Assembly (NCBI GenBank): GCA_016867265.1
Contig: VGJW01000002.1
Span: 124,001-188,000, forward strand
Reading direction: 5' to 3'
Source of the DNA: Candidatus Tanganyikabacteria bacterium
GTDB lineage: Bacteria > Cyanobacteriota > Sericytochromatia > S15B-MN24 > VGJW01
Length of the DNA: 64,000 bases
Each line of letters starts with the position of its first letter. Positions within the stretch are counted from its first letter, which is position 1. The notes beneath the pieces are model-generated. The model searched no databases and had not been told where the DNA came from. It saw only the letters and a program-made list of their open reading frames with translations. Below are positions 53,627 to 60,828 of the stretch, piece after piece. Both the position numbers and the translations under genes were made by a program.

Positions 53627-54187
53627 ATGCCCCTCGTGAGACATTGTCCCGGATGTGGCTCCCGGGTGCGCCGGGAGGTGCCCCCGGGCGACAATCGCCC
53701 GCGGGCGGTCTGCCCTGCTTGTTCGGTGGTGCACTACGAGAACCCCCGCATCGTCGTCGGTGCGGTCTGCCATGACGGACCCCGACTGGTGTTGTGCCGC
53801 AGGGCGATACCCCCCCGGATCGGTTTCTGGACGTTCCCCGCCGGTTTCATGGAACTGGGGGAGACGGCGGAGGAGGGGGCTGCCCGGGAGGCCTTCGAGG
53901 AGGCCGGTGTCCACGTCGACATCGACCGCCTGTTGGGGGTGTACAGCGTGCCCCAGCGGGGCCAGGTCCACCTGCTTTATGAGGCGAGGATGCGCGACGC
54001 CCGCCACGCGGCCGGGGAGGAAAGCCTTGAGGTGGTGATGCGCGACTGGGAAGACATACCCTGGGAGGATCTTGCCTTCCCCTCCATCCGCTGGGGATTG
54101 GAGTTGGCCTTCGAGGCGCGCCAGCAGTCCCTCTGGGTACCCAGGATGACCTCTTCGTCGGCCCCTGCCGGCACGGACGCCAACTAG
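53627..54187 (+). CDS. NUDIX hydrolase with zinc ribbon
   Basis: A 186-residue protein. An N-terminal zinc ribbon (HCPGCGSRV, VCPACSVVHYENP) precedes the NUDIX fold. The NUDIX box reads GFMELGETAEEGAAREAFEEAGV, split here as GFMELGETAEEG and AAREAFEEAGV, with all required Gly, Glu and Arg-Glu-x-x-Glu-Glu residues. FWTFPAGF precedes it as usual. It probably hydrolyses a nucleoside diphosphate derivative; zinc-ribbon members include NADH pyrophosphatase-like and ADP-ribose types. A GTG at 53636, 7 nt after a TACGAT, could be the real start. The end overlaps the convergent 54184 gene by 4 nt. Confidence 0.85.
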   Translation: MPLVRHCPGCGSRVRREVPPGDNRPRAVCPACSVVHYENPRIVVGAVCHDGPRLVLCRRAIPPRIGFWTFPAGFMELGETAEEGAAREAFEEAGVHVDIDRLLGVYSVPQRGQVHLLYEARMRDARHAAGEESLEVVMRDWEDIPWEDLAFPSIRWGLELAFEARQQSLWVPRMTSSSAPAGTDAN

Positions 54188-55197
54188 CGTCCGCGGGGTG
54201 GTCCGGAGCGGTCGACGGACTCGATGGTCCGCACGAGGACTCCGCTGATGGCCCGGATGGCGCTGATGGCCCACCGGGCCGGCACGCGTCCGAGGCCCAC
54301 GAGGGCCAATACCGTGCGGTCGAAGGCCCCGACGGCCTGATCGACACCCTGTCCCGCCATCTGGCTCCATTGCCACGCCCCGACTCGAGCCGCCCGGGCC
54401 CGCCGCGCCATGTCGCTGTTGCGGAGCGAGGCCTCGACCCGGGTCATCGCCTTGCCCAGTTCTTCGGTAAACGTCCCTGTGGCCGGACGCGCTGCCGCTT
54501 CACGCGCCCGCGGGATCGCGGCCTCGAAGGTCCGTGCGATCTGGTCGAGCACCGATGGGGATGGTTGCCGGATGCTCGTCTGCAGGTAGAGCACGTGGGG
54601 CCGACTGGTCGCTTGTTGCCCGTAGCTCGCGACGATGCCCGCCGTCGCCCCCTCCCCGCTGGGGAAGTAGTAAAGCGCGATGCGTTCGAGCCTGGGCGGC
54701 GCACCGAACATCTGCGCGGCCTGCTCAAGCAGGTGGGGCGGCACGAGCGCTCGGAAGACCAACTCATGGTCGCGTCCGACCGGTCTCAGGATGGCGCCGG
54801 TCGGGGCCTGGGCCTCCTGATCGGCCAACTGGCGAAAGGGCGTGGCTTGGCCGACGGGCGTCATGATGAGATCGGGAGCGAAGCCGGCGCGCCACGTGAT
54901 GCCTTGGACCGAGAACGTCAGGCTGCGGGCCCATTTGGCGGTCTTGCGAAGCAGCAGGGCATCCGTCCGGTCGCCGGTCTCCGGAGGCGTCCGCGGGCCG
55001 GGCATCAGGTCCGAAGTACCCACCGTGGTCCTCGCGTAGGCGGCTTGCACCACGCTGTCCCCGGGGCCGATCCTGGCGTCGCCGACCTCATCGGGCTTGA
55101 TGGGACGGGTCAGTTGCTGGGGTTGGACGCGCTGGGGCAAGCCCTGGGCCGGCGGGCCCTGTGGCTGCCTGTCCTTGTCGCCTCGCCCCCTGCGCAT
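54184..55197 (-). CDS. Hypothetical protein with basic N terminus
   Basis: A 337-residue protein I do not recognise. The first 35 residues are basic and Gln/Pro-rich (RRGRGDKDRQPQGPPAQG). The middle is mixed alpha/beta (LTFSVQGITWRAGFAPDLIM, LERIALYYFPSGEGATAG, HVLYLQTSIRQPSPSV) and the C terminus long-helical (AMTRVEASLRNSDMARRARA). There is no signal peptide or certain membrane segment. It starts 39 nt after the ftsX stop and may be the last gene of that operon; a TAGAAC 6 nt before the ATG could also start it independently. Confidence 0.55.
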   Translation of the reverse strand: MRRGRGDKDRQPQGPPAQGLPQRVQPQQLTRPIKPDEVGDARIGPGDSVVQAAYARTTVGTSDLMPGPRTPPETGDRTDALLLRKTAKWARSLTFSVQGITWRAGFAPDLIMTPVGQATPFRQLADQEAQAPTGAILRPVGRDHELVFRALVPPHLLEQAAQMFGAPPRLERIALYYFPSGEGATAGIVASYGQQATSRPHVLYLQTSIRQPSPSVLDQIARTFEAAIPRAREAAARPATGTFTEELGKAMTRVEASLRNSDMARRARAARVGAWQWSQMAGQGVDQAVGAFDRTVLALVGLGRVPARWAISAIRAISGVLVRTIESVDRSGPPRGR

Positions 55198-55236: not shown

Positions 55237-56130
55237 CTAGCCCGAGGAGAGGTGGCGCTTCACCGAGACCAGGCTGCCGAGCGCACCGACGCCGACGCCG
55301 ACGAGCAAGAGGTTCGCGAGCAGGCGCACCGTGCCCATGGAGTCGGCCTCGATGGGCACGAAGGGGAACAGCTCCTGCAGGCGCTGGATGACGAAGGTGC
55401 GCCACGAGACAAGCAGCGGGCTGCTGATGAGCGTGCCCAAGGCCCCGAAGAGCATGCCCTCGAGCAGGAAAGGCCAGTGGATGAATCCATTCGACGCCCC
55501 GACCAACTGCATGATCTCGATTTCGCGGCGTCGGGTCTGAACCGTCAGGCGGATGGTGTTGACCGTGACAGCCAGCGTGGCCACCAGCAGGCAGCCGACG
55601 ATGATGGCCCCTGCGGCCTGGATGAACGCGGCAATCTGCTGCAGTTTCGCGAGCAGATCCCTGCCGTAATTGATGTCCTCGACACCGTCCAGCTGGCGGA
55701 TGCGATCGGCTACGGGCGTGACTTGGTCCGGTCCGTCGACCTTGACGCGGATGGTGTCGGGTAGCGGGTTGTCGTCGAGCAGATTCTCGAAGGACAACTC
55801 GCTGCGCATGTCCCGTTGCAGCTGGGTCCACGCTTCGTCGCGGGTGATGACGACCGTGGTGGTCACGCCCGGGAACTGCCGGATGGCCGCCGAGAGCCGC
55901 GCCGCGTCCGAGCCCTCGCGCACGAAGGTCATGATTTCGACCTTGCCGCCGATGGCCCGGGACAGTCCGTAGATATCGTCCGACAACTGCCAGATGCCGC
56001 CCAGGATCAGCAGCGAGACGGACATCGTCAGGATGACGACCCCGCTCATCCATCCCTGACGGCTGATTGAGGCGACGGCCTCCTCGAGGACGAACCCGAC
56101 CTGACGCCAGAACCGCCTAACCGACTCCAA
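55237..56130 (-). CDS. ftsX: Cell division protein FtsX
   Basis: A 297-residue permease-like protein with four membrane helices: one near residues 30-50 (VVILTMSVSLLILGGIW), an extracytoplasmic domain of about 120 residues, then three helices (GAIIVGCLLVATLAVTV, LLEGMLFGALGTLISS, LLANLLLVGVGVGALG). TRRREIEIMQLVGASNGFI is the FtsX signature. The TTG start has AGGAGG 8 nt upstream and overlaps ftsE by 14 nt. With FtsE it transmits ATP hydrolysis to periplasmic peptidoglycan hydrolases at the division site. Confidence 0.94.
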   Translation of the reverse strand: MESVRRFWRQVGFVLEEAVASISRQGWMSGVVILTMSVSLLILGGIWQLSDDIYGLSRAIGGKVEIMTFVREGSDAARLSAAIRQFPGVTTTVVITRDEAWTQLQRDMRSELSFENLLDDNPLPDTIRVKVDGPDQVTPVADRIRQLDGVEDINYGRDLLAKLQQIAAFIQAAGAIIVGCLLVATLAVTVNTIRLTVQTRRREIEIMQLVGASNGFIHWPFLLEGMLFGALGTLISSPLLVSWRTFVIQRLQELFPFVPIEADSMGTVRLLANLLLVGVGVGALGSLVSVKRHLSSG

Positions 56131-56806
56131 CGGGGTAACCTCCTCGGGCGATGTCCTGGACGATCCGGCCCCCGTCGAGTGCCACCACGCGCCGGCGCAT
56201 CGAGTCGACGATGTGCTTGTTGTGCGTCGCCACCAGGACCGTCGTCCCGTGCTGGTTGATGCGGGTGAGGAGCCTCATGATGTCCCACGAGGTATCCGGG
56301 TCGAGGTTGCCGGTCGGCTCGTCGCAGAGCAGCAGGGGCGGCGTGTTGACGATGGCCCGGGCGAGGCACACGCGCTGTTGCTGGCCTCCGGACAACTGGC
56401 CGGGCATCAGGTCGCTGTATTCGCGCAGGTTCACGAGGTCGAGCGCGCTGCGGGTACGCTTGTCGACCTCGCTGCGGCTGGTGCCCAGGACCTTCAGGGC
56501 GAAGGCCACGTTCTCGAAGACCGTGCGCTGAGGCAGCAGCTTGTAGTCCTGGAACACCACGCCGATGCGGCGACGCAGCACAGGTAACTGGCCTCGGGAA
56601 AGGCGTCCGATGTCCGTGCCCGAGACCAGGACCGATCCGGAGGTCGCGGTCTCGGCACGGTACATCAGCTTGAGCAGGGTGCTCTTGCCCGCGCCGGAGA
56701 GACCCACGAGGAAGACGAACTCCCCCTTCTCGACGTCCAGATTGGCACCGGTGACCGCACGGACGCCGCTGGGGTAGATCTTGCTGACCTGCTTGAGCCG
56801 GATCAT
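56117..56806 (-). CDS. ftsE: Cell division ATP-binding protein FtsE
   Basis: A 229-residue ABC ATPase. Walker A is LVGLSGAGKSTLLKL, the Q loop is VVFQDYKLLP (diagnostic of FtsE), the signature is LSGGQQQRVCLARAI, Walker B is LLLCDEPTGNLD and the switch His is in VATHNKHIV. It binds cytoplasmic loops of FtsX. The ATG overlaps the tagA stop as ATGA, so division and glycopolymer genes are translated together. Confidence 0.96.
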   Translation of the reverse strand: MIRLKQVSKIYPSGVRAVTGANLDVEKGEFVFLVGLSGAGKSTLLKLMYRAETATSGSVLVSGTDIGRLSRGQLPVLRRRIGVVFQDYKLLPQRTVFENVAFALKVLGTSRSEVDKRTRSALDLVNLREYSDLMPGQLSGGQQQRVCLARAIVNTPPLLLCDEPTGNLDPDTSWDIMRLLTRINQHGTTVLVATHNKHIVDSMRRRVVALDGGRIVQDIARGGYPVGVG

Positions 56807-57594
56807 GCCGGGTCGTGCCTCCGTCCGTCCCGGGGGGCGTCGCTGCCAGTGTAGCGCTCACGACTTTCCGAGGCGATGGCCGCGCGAACGAAGCGGGGCA
56901 AGAGGGACGCCATGCGCTTCCAGCGCCAGGGTTCCTGGACGAGCCTGTAGAGCCACTCGAGATGCAGCCGTATCATCAAGCCGGGCGCGCGTTGCAGGCG
57001 ACCCGAGATCACGTCGAAGCTCCCGCCCACGCCCATGGCGACCCGGATGCCCAGCGCGGCGCCGTGGCGGCTGATCCAGACCTCCTGCCGCGGCACCCCG
57101 AGGGCGACGAGCAGGGCACCTGCCCCCGACTCACGGATGGTCGCGAGCACCTCGGGTTCCGTTTCCGGGGCAAAGTAGCCATCCCGGATGCCGGCGATGG
57201 CGAGTTCCGGATATCGGGCCTGCAGGACCTCGGCGGCGGCGGCGGCAACGCCCGGGGCGGCCCCGAGCAGGTACAGGCTGCGCCGGTTGGCGACGCAGGC
57301 ACGTGCGATGGCCTCGACGAACGCCACGCCGGCCATCTTGCGCACCGGGCGCCCCCGGCGTGCCGCTGCCCAAACGACGCCGGACCCGTCCGCCAGCACC
57401 AGGCCAGCCGCACGGATGATCGCGGCGAGATCCGCGTTGTCGGCAGCTTGGATGGCCATCTCGGCATTCATGGTGACGATGTGCAGGCATGCGCCCTGAC
57501 CGGCCAGATGGTCCCGGACCTGCGCTTCCGCCCAGTCCCCGTCACCGGTGTCGAGGGGCAGGCCCGTGACGGTGATGCGGGTTCCCCCGGTCAT
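56803..57594 (-). CDS. WecG/TagA/CpsF-family glycosyltransferase (GT26)
   Basis: A 263-residue enzyme starting MTGGTRITVTGLPLDTGD with GAGGTG 5 nt upstream. HIVTMNAEMAIQA, LVLADGSGVVWAAARRG, LYLLGAAPGVAAAAAE and VALGVPRQEVWISRHG follow the GT26 order, and the C-terminal LEWLYRLVQEPWRWKRM is the membrane-association tail. Members transfer ManNAc or a ManNAc-type sugar to GlcNAc-PP-undecaprenol in teichoic-acid, enterobacterial-common-antigen or exopolysaccharide synthesis. It overlaps csaB upstream and ftsE downstream by 4 nt each. Confidence 0.92.
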   Translation of the reverse strand: MTGGTRITVTGLPLDTGDGDWAEAQVRDHLAGQGACLHIVTMNAEMAIQAADNADLAAIIRAAGLVLADGSGVVWAAARRGRPVRKMAGVAFVEAIARACVANRRSLYLLGAAPGVAAAAAEVLQARYPELAIAGIRDGYFAPETEPEVLATIRESGAGALLVALGVPRQEVWISRHGAALGIRVAMGVGGSFDVISGRLQRAPGLMIRLHLEWLYRLVQEPWRWKRMASLLPRFVRAAIASESRERYTGSDAPRDGRRHDPA

Positions 57595-58736
57595 GGACGC
57601 ACCTCGGCCGTCAACCCGGCCACCTCGCGCGCGAGGCTGAAGTTGCGCAGGGCGGCGTCGACCTCTGTCGGACGTCGGGCGCGAAGGGCCTCGGCGAGGC
57701 TCCCGCGCTGCGACCAAAGGGCTTCGATGCGCTTGCCGAAGGCCTCGAAGTCGTCGAGGTCACCCAACTCCTGGGCCATGGGGGCTTCCCATCGGGCGCA
57801 ATGCTGGCGGACTTTCTCGTCGTAGGCGAGGCCGAAGAACGGTACGCCCGTGGCCGCGGCCATTATCAACGCATGCAGGCGCATGCCCACGACCATTTCG
57901 CAGTGCCCCACGATGCCCATGAGCTCGGCCGGGGTACAGGGGTGGTCCAGCACCGTCACGCCGGGACGATGCCCCTCGGGGCGGGTTTCGGCACACAGGG
58001 CGAACTCGCGGGAAATCCAGAGGTCTTCGGGGTGCTGGAAGGGCAGGACCAGCAACCGTGCGCCGGTCCGGGCGGCCAGTTGGCCGAGTGTTGCGGACAG
58101 GCTCTTGAAACGGCGCTCGAACCATTGGGGCCATTGGCGCAAGGCTACGGCCACGATGGGTGGCCCATCGGGTTCGATGCCCGTACCGGTCAGGATGGCG
58201 CGCGTCCGGTCGGCCGTGGCCGGCCGCAGGGCCAGAACCGGATCAGCCGTGAGATGGACCCGATCAGCTGGCAGGCCGAGGGCTTTCATCAGGGCGACTG
58301 ATCCGGCATCGCGGACGACAAGGGCTGAACAACTCCCGAGCGCCCAGCCCGCAAGGGCGCGTGAGGCGAGGCGATTGAGCGGTCCGAGGCCGATGCCCAG
58401 TGTCATCGACCGCGTCCCGGCAAGGCGTGCAAGGCGCAGCAGGCCTCCGTAATAGGGGACGGAACCCATGCCCGTCACGTCCTGCATCAGGCCACCACCA
58501 CCTGAGATGAAGAGGGCTGCGCCACGAATGGCCGGCCATATGTGGCGCAAATCCATTCGTGGAATGGCCGCGACACCGTGGTCGCGGGCCGTGGCCGCGG
58601 GATCCGCAGACAGTACCGTGAGGTCCGCCCACGTGCCCAATTCCTGCACGAGCGTCGCGAGGATCGCCTCGTCGCCGGCATTCCCGAATCCGTAATAGCC
58701 CGAGACGACGACGCGCGGGCGGACGCCAGCCGTCAC
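57591..58736 (-). CDS. csaB: Polysaccharide pyruvyl transferase CsaB
   Basis: A 381-residue protein. The GTG start at 58736 shares one base with the upstream stop (TAGTG) and gives the canonical N terminus (VVVSGYYGFGNAGDEAILA). LFISGGGGLMQDVTG, LGIGLGPLNR, LVVRDAGSVALMKALG, HPCTPAELMGIVGHCEMVVG and MRLHALIMAAATGVPFFGLAYD are typical of CsaB. The enzyme puts a ketal-linked pyruvate from phosphoenolpyruvate on wall-bound polysaccharide, the ligand for SLH domains of S-layer and envelope proteins. No SLH protein is in the window. tagA follows with a 4-nt overlap. Confidence 0.92.
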   Translation of the reverse strand: MTAGVRPRVVVSGYYGFGNAGDEAILATLVQELGTWADLTVLSADPAATARDHGVAAIPRMDLRHIWPAIRGAALFISGGGGLMQDVTGMGSVPYYGGLLRLARLAGTRSMTLGIGLGPLNRLASRALAGWALGSCSALVVRDAGSVALMKALGLPADRVHLTADPVLALRPATADRTRAILTGTGIEPDGPPIVAVALRQWPQWFERRFKSLSATLGQLAARTGARLLVLPFQHPEDLWISREFALCAETRPEGHRPGVTVLDHPCTPAELMGIVGHCEMVVGMRLHALIMAAATGVPFFGLAYDEKVRQHCARWEAPMAQELGDLDDFEAFGKRIEALWSQRGSLAEALRARRPTEVDAALRNFSLAREVAGLTAEVRP

Positions 58737-59479
58737 TAGGGGGCTTCGGGGTCCCGCGCCCCGTCCACGAGCTGGGCCTGAAGCGCCCGGCCCAACTGCT
58801 CGAGCGAGCAGATGCCCGAGCCGACCAGGATCTCCCCCAGCAGCTGGCCCGTGACGGCTTGGCGCACCAGCGCGTCCTCGAGTTGATCCTTGGTCACGAT
58901 CCCTTGCGTGACCAGGATGGTGCCCAGCCTCGACTCCTGAGTCTGGAAGCTCAGATTCTCGTCGACCTGCTCCGGCGTCAGCGAACCCTGCTGCACGAGG
59001 ATGTCCGCCAAGTGGGATTCGGGGTGGTTGCCCAGCGTGACCATGGCCCGATCGAGGTCTTCGCTGGTAATCAGGCGACGCTTGATCAGAAAGGCACCCA
59101 GCCGCTTCTCCTGACGTTGCTGGGCGAGTGCCCACGACACTTCGTCGGCCGTGGCCACGCCCAGCCGGACCAAGGTCTCGCCGAGCAGCCCCGCCTCGAC
59201 GGCCTGCACTTCGAGGGCGCGTTCCAGATCCGCTTCCGCGAGGGTCCCGCGCCGGACCAGGATCTGGCCGAGCCGTGCGTCCTGCAGTTGGGTCCGCAGG
59301 ATCTCGCGCAACTGGGACGGGGTAACGGCGCCTTGCGCGACCAGAATCTCGCCCAGAGGTCTGGCGTCGTCCGCCTGCTGGACGCGCAAAGCATCCTCGA
59401 GGTCCTCGGCCGAGATAAGGCCCTGCTGGATCAACATCTGGCCCAGCCGGCCTTCTTGGGGCAATTTAGCAGTCGTCAT
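58736..59479 (-). CDS. Tandem MshEN-like repeat protein, putative c-di-GMP sensor
   Basis: A 247-residue soluble protein made almost wholly of eight 28-30-residue half-repeats. They alternate between an RLG type (RLGQMLIQQGLIS, RLGQILVRRGTLA, RLGAFLIKRRLIT, RLGTILVTQGIVT) and an LGE type (PLGEILVAQGAVT, LLGETLVRLGVAT, HLADILVQQGSLT, LLGEILVGSGICS). Each half has a following LxxAL-xQ helix. One RLG plus one LGE half reproduces the two-part c-di-GMP motif of MshEN/GspE-N domains, so four such modules are present, the third being less well kept. No ATPase domain is attached, unlike in MshE or GspE. It is the first gene of the csaB-tagA-ftsEX operon. Confidence 0.75.
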   Translation of the reverse strand: MTTAKLPQEGRLGQMLIQQGLISAEDLEDALRVQQADDARPLGEILVAQGAVTPSQLREILRTQLQDARLGQILVRRGTLAEADLERALEVQAVEAGLLGETLVRLGVATADEVSWALAQQRQEKRLGAFLIKRRLITSEDLDRAMVTLGNHPESHLADILVQQGSLTPEQVDENLSFQTQESRLGTILVTQGIVTKDQLEDALVRQAVTGQLLGEILVGSGICSLEQLGRALQAQLVDGARDPEAP

Positions 59480-59532: not shown

Positions 59533-60828
59533 ATGGCGCGTCGTGCGCGTCCAGCCTTGGCTGGCCTGCTGGCGGGCGCGCTGACGGCCCTTCCGGCGAC
59601 GCCCGACGTCGCGGTGCCGCAGGATGAGCGGCCGGCACTCTACCGCCGGTTCGCCATCGAGTACGTGCCCGACGGGGAGAGTTACCGCCTGCTCAGGGAT
59701 GGCGTCCAGGTTCCCGACGGGGTCCTGGCGACCTTGCCCGGGGAGCAGGATCTGGCGGATGGACTGCGGGCACGCGAGACCTGGTCCACGCTGTGGCGCT
59801 TGGGCGGAGGCCTCGTGTTGCTGCCTCTCGGGGCGCTTGTCGGCGTCGACAACTTCTTCGGGAATCGCAAGGAGGAGACTCGGCTCGGGGCCATCACGCT
59901 GCCGCCTTCGCAGGTTGCTCCCTACGAGCCCGGACATGCCGTGACGGGGCTGCTGCTGGGCACGGGCGTCCTTATGGCGGGCTGGGGCCTGGGCTTGCTC
60001 GTGGCCCAGGCGGGCATCTGGGCGGGCTGGACGATACCGCGATCGCTGGACCCCGAACGGGCGGCCGAGGCCGCGGAACGCCAGCGTCAGACCTTGCTCG
60101 GGCGCCTCAACCTGGCTGCCCCGCCCCCGACGCCCAGTCCGACGCCCGTGCCGGATCCGTCGGCGAGGCCGGCGCCGCCCGAGCCTGTGCTGGATGCGGA
60201 CTTTCCCGAAGGTGTCGATGGCTCGGCGGCCTGGGCCATCCGGCAGGCCCTCGCTTCCGTCGGTACGGGCCAGTGGGCACCCTTCCTCGCGTGGACGGAC
60301 GACATGGACGACCTCGAGAGCGGCACCTTGGCGAGGGGCGCCTGGCAGGTCATGGTTCGCAAACAATCCCTGCGGCCCGATCCGGCGGTGCCCTACGGTC
60401 TGGCCCCCGAGGTCGCAGCCGGGCTGGAGCCCCCCACGGACGACGTGCGCGAAGTGTCGGTGCCCCGGCATGGGGGCGCCGTGTCGTGGCGCTCGGGAGC
60501 CTTGCCGTACCGGGTGTATCGCGGGGGGAGCGAGGCCTTCCGCCGGGTTCGCGTGGACTCGCCGGAAGCCTTGCCCCGAATGTTGGCCGCCCTGCGCGAC
60601 ATGGGGCGGGCCGCGTGGTGGCGACCGGGGATGCGCGTGGTCCTGCAGCCGTTCCGTGGAAGAACGGTCGGGCCGATGTGGCTGCTGCTGCCGTCGTCAG
60701 GCGAACCGGCGCTTGCACTCGATGCCGAGAGGGCCCGGCTTATCAGCCTGCCCGGGAGATCTCGGCCAGGCATCGGGCCAACTGCACCAGGCCAGGCGCC
60801 AGGCGATCCGATGGGGCCAGCAGACTGA
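59533..60828 (+). CDS. Hypothetical exported membrane protein
   Basis: A 431-residue protein. A signal-like N terminus (RPALAGLLAGALTALPA) precedes a short domain (YRRFAIEYVPDGESYRLL). Two membrane helices follow, near 100-120 (LGGGLVLLPLGALVG) and 140-165 (TGLLLGTGVLMAGWGLGLLV). A Pro/Thr linker (PPPTPSPTPVPDPSARP) leads to a C-terminal domain with SAAWAIRQALASVGTG and ALPRMLAALRDMGRAAWW. No family is recognised. It is divergent from the MshEN-array operon and shares its palindromic promoter, so joint control is likely. The last 86 nt overlap the convergent dapC. Confidence 0.55.
   Translation: MARRARPALAGLLAGALTALPATPDVAVPQDERPALYRRFAIEYVPDGESYRLLRDGVQVPDGVLATLPGEQDLADGLRARETWSTLWRLGGGLVLLPLGALVGVDNFFGNRKEETRLGAITLPPSQVAPYEPGHAVTGLLLGTGVLMAGWGLGLLVAQAGIWAGWTIPRSLDPERAAEAAERQRQTLLGRLNLAAPPPTPSPTPVPDPSARPAPPEPVLDADFPEGVDGSAAWAIRQALASVGTGQWAPFLAWTDDMDDLESGTLARGAWQVMVRKQSLRPDPAVPYGLAPEVAAGLEPPTDDVREVSVPRHGGAVSWRSGALPYRVYRGGSEAFRRVRVDSPEALPRMLAALRDMGRAAWWRPGMRVVLQPFRGRTVGPMWLLLPSSGEPALALDAERARLISLPGRSRPGIGPTAPGQAPGDPMGPAD

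Follow-up and report, generated by a model that had tools for sequence, protein, structure and literature searches.

The analysed window (64,000 nucleotides of Candidatus Tanganyikabacteria DNA) encodes a stand-alone array of four c-di-GMP-binding-type (MshEN_N) modules, one of them degenerate, at the head of an operon comprising csaB, tagA, ftsE and ftsX. Four-module orthologues of this protein were confined to the slot ahead of csaB, in two families, among 194 sampled genomes of the phylum, and the content of that slot was found to vary by family, being a four-module array, a two-module array, a CHASE2-cyclase, or nothing. We read the array as a c-di-GMP-reading cytoplasmic adaptor that may act in trans on the synthesis of a pyruvylated wall glycopolymer, with a probability of roughly 0.4. 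The five genes are:

58736..59479, minus strand: stand-alone MshEN_N array, 247 aa, ATG start, four modules, no effector domain
57591..58736, minus strand: csaB, polysaccharide pyruvyl transferase, GTG start (TIGR03609, 2.6e-85, 286.4 bits against a cut-off of 213.1)
56803..57594, minus strand: tagA/wecG-family glycosyltransferase (PF03808, 3e-58; TIGR00696 above cut-off)
56117..56806, minus strand: ftsE (TIGR02673, 6e-84, 281 bits against a cut-off of 264.85)
55237..56130, minus strand: ftsX (NF038347, 4.9e-67, 226.4 bits against a cut-off of 225; PF18075, PF02687)

The coordinates bear out the original prediction that the array heads this gene order with overlaps of 1 to 14 nt: the array and csaB share 1 nt (TAG/GTG), csaB and tagA 4 nt (ATG at 57594), tagA and ftsE 4 nt, and ftsE and ftsX 14 nt. 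Stoichiometric synthesis from this tight operon and a coupling of the envelope genes to division by the array, both proposed in that prediction, are conjectural, and the gap between array and csaB in a second family (f3, below) does not favour them. By its profile matches the tagA product is a member of the WecG/TagA/CpsF superfamily, an assignment that holds at superfamily level, its score against the TarA equivalog NF041710 (139.5 bits) lying well under the cut-off of 350. The operon is flanked by a gene after ftsX (54184-55197, minus strand), without Pfam match and kept near ftsX in genomes of families f1, f2 and f3, and by a divergent gene (59533-60828, plus strand), 53 nt from the array start and likewise without Pfam match. 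Seven genomes, among them the array-less G005, keep this divergent gene beside either the array or csaB.

Earlier inspection had described the array protein as eight alternating half-repeats with no effector domain, and both features were recovered. The half-motifs (n=8), each 24 residues long, start at residues 11, 41, 69, 98, 126, 156, 184 and 213, with RLG-type motifs alternating with LGE/LLG-type motifs along the array, and they pair into four 53-residue c-di-GMP-binding-type units:

Module I, aa 11-64, 59288..59449, minus strand: intact RLG...Q / PLG...Q; NF053729 61.7 bits
Module II, aa 69-121, 59117..59275, minus strand: intact RLG...Q / LLG...Q; NF053729 49.9 bits
Module III, aa 126-179, 58943..59104, minus strand: degenerate; weak partial NF053729 match, 30.3 bits
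Module IV, aa 184-236, 58772..58930, minus strand: intact RLG...Q / LLG...Q; NF053729 59.6 bits

Against the NCBIfam profile NF053729 (c-di-GMP_motif) the whole array scored 189.6 bits (cut-off 38, E 4.7e-57), with five of its stretches passing individually, which puts the repeat match far beyond chance. When compared to solved structures using phmmer, the array matched Thermus PilF (9.9e-19) and MshE (1.6e-5). Of the Pfam names, only DUF4388 exceeded its cut-off (53 bits, spread over short pieces), with FumaraseC_C, nitrile hydratase and other Pfam names below theirs; all were taken as repeat cross-matches, because the NF053729 and solved-structure matches are far more specific. PF05157, the search model originally proposed, gave no match to the array and was rejected as a diagnostic model; it does match three further proteins encoded in this genome. 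In a pilus-ATPase-like protein of this genome the matching stretch comes directly after an NF053729 unit, and PF05157 thus marks the C-terminal subdomain, MshEN_C, which is absent from the array.

An AlphaFold2 model of the array, built from four sequences, was all helical (pLDDT 82, pTM 0.67), with predicted helices at residues 54-77, 111-133 and 169-191 each spanning the junction of two successive units. The best Foldseek matches in the PDB were c-di-GMP-bound PilF GSPII-B and MshE (51-53 residues, 0.8-1.0 Å rmsd, 41-49% identity), with the structures 8PDK, 8PFA and 5HTL superposing on single array units; the whole-query E-values were non-significant (best 0.65) because only one unit aligns. 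In this model the array units share an MshEN_N-like four-helix-bundle fold, so that the check set earlier, for a non-MshEN fold, came out on the MshEN side, and the relative placement of the modules is uncertain at this pTM.

Retention of the motif residues was scored in five sequences: the array protein itself and four orthologues that share 44-56% identity with it. In module I the LG, Leu, Leu and Gln positions are retained at 96% and in modules II and IV at 100%, as compared to 56% in module III. In the first half of module III, Leu replaces the motif Gln in all five sequences and Arg or Lys replaces the motif Gly in four, and in its second half LG has become LA, LS or LT. Modules I, II and IV accordingly agree with the two-motif pattern (24-residue motifs and a spacer of about 5 residues; here 5-6), from which module III departs. 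As the same three modules are conserved and the same one is degenerate throughout, the array appears to hold three probable sites, its remaining unit having degenerated long ago, and the predicted four modules are correct as architecture and incorrect as four binding sites; by the same token, the motif residues expected to persist in homologues are kept in I, II and IV and lost in III. Since the binding residues of the three modules are retained while the remainder of the protein diverges, c-di-GMP binding by the array protein is likely on motif grounds. A helical scaffold that has lost c-di-GMP binding would fit the disappearance of the module III motif from all orthologues, and non-binding relatives are known in XpsE and GSPII-A (PMC5013675, PMC11731258), but the ligand-contacting residues of the other three modules are kept selectively amid divergence, and we consider such a scaffold very improbable.

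The Vibrio cholerae MshE unit (5HTL; PMC5013675) resembles an array unit in its two 24-residue motifs, four-helix bundle and Leu/Gly/Gln positions (1.0 Å over 51 residues, 41% identity), and isolated MshEN_N binds c-di-GMP with a KD of 0.35 µM, binding being good without MshEN_C (PMC5013675); unlike MshE, the array consists of four tandem units with neither MshEN_C nor ATPase. The earlier statement that MshEN domains sit singly does not hold, as Thermus PilF has three units (PMC11731258), an (MshEN_N)2 arrangement had already been noted (PMC5013675), and many arrays occur in the class studied here. PilF (GSPII-A/B/C; 8PDK, 0.8-0.9 Å and 46-49% identity to an array unit) shares with the array a tandem in which one member, GSPII-A, is non-binding, a role that module III would take by its motif; in PilF, however, each unit carries a C-terminal subdomain and is fused to an ATPase, whereas the array units are bare and lie on a free protein (PMC11731258). 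PilF GSPII-B binds at 6 nM and its second motif starts LLG, and a hydrophobic first motif residue has been proposed to predict tight c-di-GMP binding (PMC11731258). The second motifs of modules II and IV likewise start LLG, although the first motifs of the array retain Arg. The effector-less tandem units of (MshEN_N)2 and the small MshEN_N proteins matched by NF053729 are similar to the array, which differs in having four units and a fixed place heading csaB-tagA-ftsEX.

The adjacency of array and operon, which the original prediction proposed to survey, was found to be kept in six genomes: the order array-csaB-tagA-ftsE-ftsX is complete in five (G000, G001, G002, G006 and G009) and retained in G004 up to the contig edge, inside ftsE. 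These six, four from the window's family (f1) and two from a second family (f3), belong to one Sericytochromatia-related order; in f3 the array and csaB do not overlap and are separated by about 110-260 nt. In two genomes of a third family (G007 and G008) a two-module array occupies the slot before csaB, and in G005 (f2) the core operon is kept with the slot empty, which shows that the array is not essential to the operon. Beyond these families, the core operon is complete in G010-G013 and G016 (f5 and f6), and the contig of G014 stops after tagA. Most of the class thus has the core operon, with a variable slot in front of it. A phylum-wide operon was rejected, as none of the 13 csaB loci outside the class had tagA or ftsE within 1.5 kb of csaB and two class genomes of f7 also lacked these neighbours. 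The neighbourhoods come from few genomes, which are related to each other and partly incomplete. When the four core genes were placed in an unrooted tree, f4 clustered with f5 and f6; with the placing of f2 and f3 weak (46-62), acquisition of the array by the ancestor of the order and a single loss in f2 is simply the most economical reading.

In the other families, csaB is overlapped by a few nt by a CHASE2-guanylate/adenylate-cyclase gene (PF00211 and PF05226 scored) in four genomes (G010, G012, G013 and G014) and probably in a fifth, G011, where the upstream ORF has CHASE2 and a matching N-terminus; the slot of G016 falls beyond the contig edge and is outside this count. CHASE2 gave no match in the window's genome. 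The overlapping genes are:

L083:5446-7140, L084:5706-7505 and L085:5511-7232: CHASE2-cyclase overlapping csaB
L087:5707-7434: CHASE2 gene, putative cyclase, overlapping csaB
L089:1855-4998: CHASE2-cyclase overlapping csaB, joined in one ORF with a MurF-like part (G014), through fusion or an assembly effect

The position ahead of csaB therefore repeatedly hosts a second-messenger protein. A doubtful but conceivable extension is that the core operon serves as an envelope-and-division module whose second-messenger input gene is interchangeable, either a CHASE2-cyclase or an MshEN_N array.

MshEN_N units are encoded by about 11 genes of the window's genome, and effector-less arrays are numerous both there and in the class. 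A second conserved stand-alone array of about 128 aa and two modules is present in the window's genome and two f3 genomes, and a third, of three modules and about 186-214 aa (207 in an f6 protein), in f6 and f7:

L109:2863-3249, L139:1290-1673 and L140:1205-1591: two-module array of about 128 aa
L127:1658-2281, L128:1546-2190, L129:1727-2350, L130:1506-2066 and L040:6286-6903: three-module array
L107:910-2760 (three modules) and L108:187-2013 (two modules): longer MshEN_N proteins of the window's genome

Inspected by eye, the three-module array in L127 and L040 has a lipoprotein-like and a RuvB-like gene nearby. No envelope genes were visible beside the class's other stand-alone arrays in the contexts examined. 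With effector-less arrays commonplace in the lineage, the protein itself is less novel and its operon linkage is the notable part. Their abundance in contexts without common envelope genes, together with the genomes in which the core operon lacks an array, would suit a general-purpose c-di-GMP buffer or adaptor with a partner outside the operon (e.g. a pilus or polysaccharide-export protein), its operon place serving expression only. We regard this as unlikely, if the least so of the alternatives, as against it the orthologues hold the same slot in two families, a third family has a related array of two modules there, and the full four-module protein is found nowhere else: it occurs in six of the 194 genomes (E 2.3e-107 or better), always at csaB, the next best match being 3.2e-41.

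The window's genome contains three proteins with SLH matches and seven GGDEF (diguanylate-cyclase-type) matches, three of which have a recognisable GGEEF or GGDDF motif in a crude motif search. The protein OmpM carries an SLH domain. In Terrabacteria diderms, OmpM serves as an outer-membrane tether (PMC10628300). SLH domains bind a pyruvylated ManNAc epitope, and TagO and TagA produce the lipid-linked disaccharide whose ManNAc is pyruvylated by CsaB (PMC6801904). In Paenibacillus alvei, csaB and tagA lie in one cluster, which similarly provides a pyruvylated polymer for SLH proteins; in contrast to the window, neither a c-di-GMP receptor nor ftsEX is described for this cluster in that review (PMC6801904). 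A precedent for c-di-GMP input is the E. coli glycosyltransferase NfrB, whose MshEN domain is tied to envelope-polysaccharide synthesis requiring c-di-GMP and a ManNAc precursor (PMC8669472), although in NfrB the domain is fused in cis to the enzyme and the array is a separate operon gene. From the roles of CsaB, TagA and SLH domains, the OmpM tether and the NfrB precedent we infer a free c-di-GMP adaptor on the TagA-CsaB step.

In the proposed mechanism, the protein would be a cytoplasmic c-di-GMP receptor made of MshEN_N units only, three of them binding and one serving as a structural spacer, with long helices connecting successive units into a rod. Binding of c-di-GMP would alter the shape or stability of the array and thereby act on the enzymes of the adjoining genes. 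The likeliest target would be the TagA-CsaB step, in which the lipid-linked wall glycopolymer is built and pyruvylated to give the epitope gripped by SLH-domain envelope proteins; control of CsaB/TagA has, in our view, a little under an even chance. Co-translation with ftsEX could further subject the attachment of the envelope and the hydrolysis of the septal wall to a single control, and control of FtsEX by the array is speculative. A version in which the array regulates FtsEX rather than the glycopolymer enzymes, with c-di-GMP gating hydrolysis of the septal wall by way of a contact between array and FtsE in the cytoplasm, is in keeping with the presence of ftsE and ftsX after csaB-tagA in all class genomes with enough contig, save f7, and with ftsE being the most conserved operon gene (69-83% identity among array-bearing genomes). 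The array adjoins csaB rather than ftsE, however, G005 keeps ftsEX though its slot is empty, and in a small literature sample no title or abstract was found linking c-di-GMP directly to FtsEX, which makes this version improbable. The adaptor acting on glycopolymer synthesis is favoured by the retained motif residues of three modules, the operon order kept in relatives, the recurrence of a second-messenger gene ahead of csaB and the presence of GGDEF and SLH proteins; counting against it are the absence of the array in G005 and the intergenic gap in f3, the lack of visible envelope neighbours for the class's other arrays, and a four-sequence structural model with uncertain module placement and non-significant Foldseek E-values.

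The Sericytochromatia belong to the Cyanobacteriota/Melainabacteria group, and the setting is a deeply branching, non-photosynthetic lineage within the cyanobacterial phylum. From its location at the operon head, the array suggests that c-di-GMP may control the envelope in these bacteria. If the adaptor reading is true, a c-di-GMP receptor would here be a free adaptor with several sites, working on the pathway of a wall glycopolymer beside FtsEX, and if the input gene ahead of csaB is indeed interchangeable, nucleotide signalling would jointly control the attachment of the outer envelope and the splitting of the septal wall.
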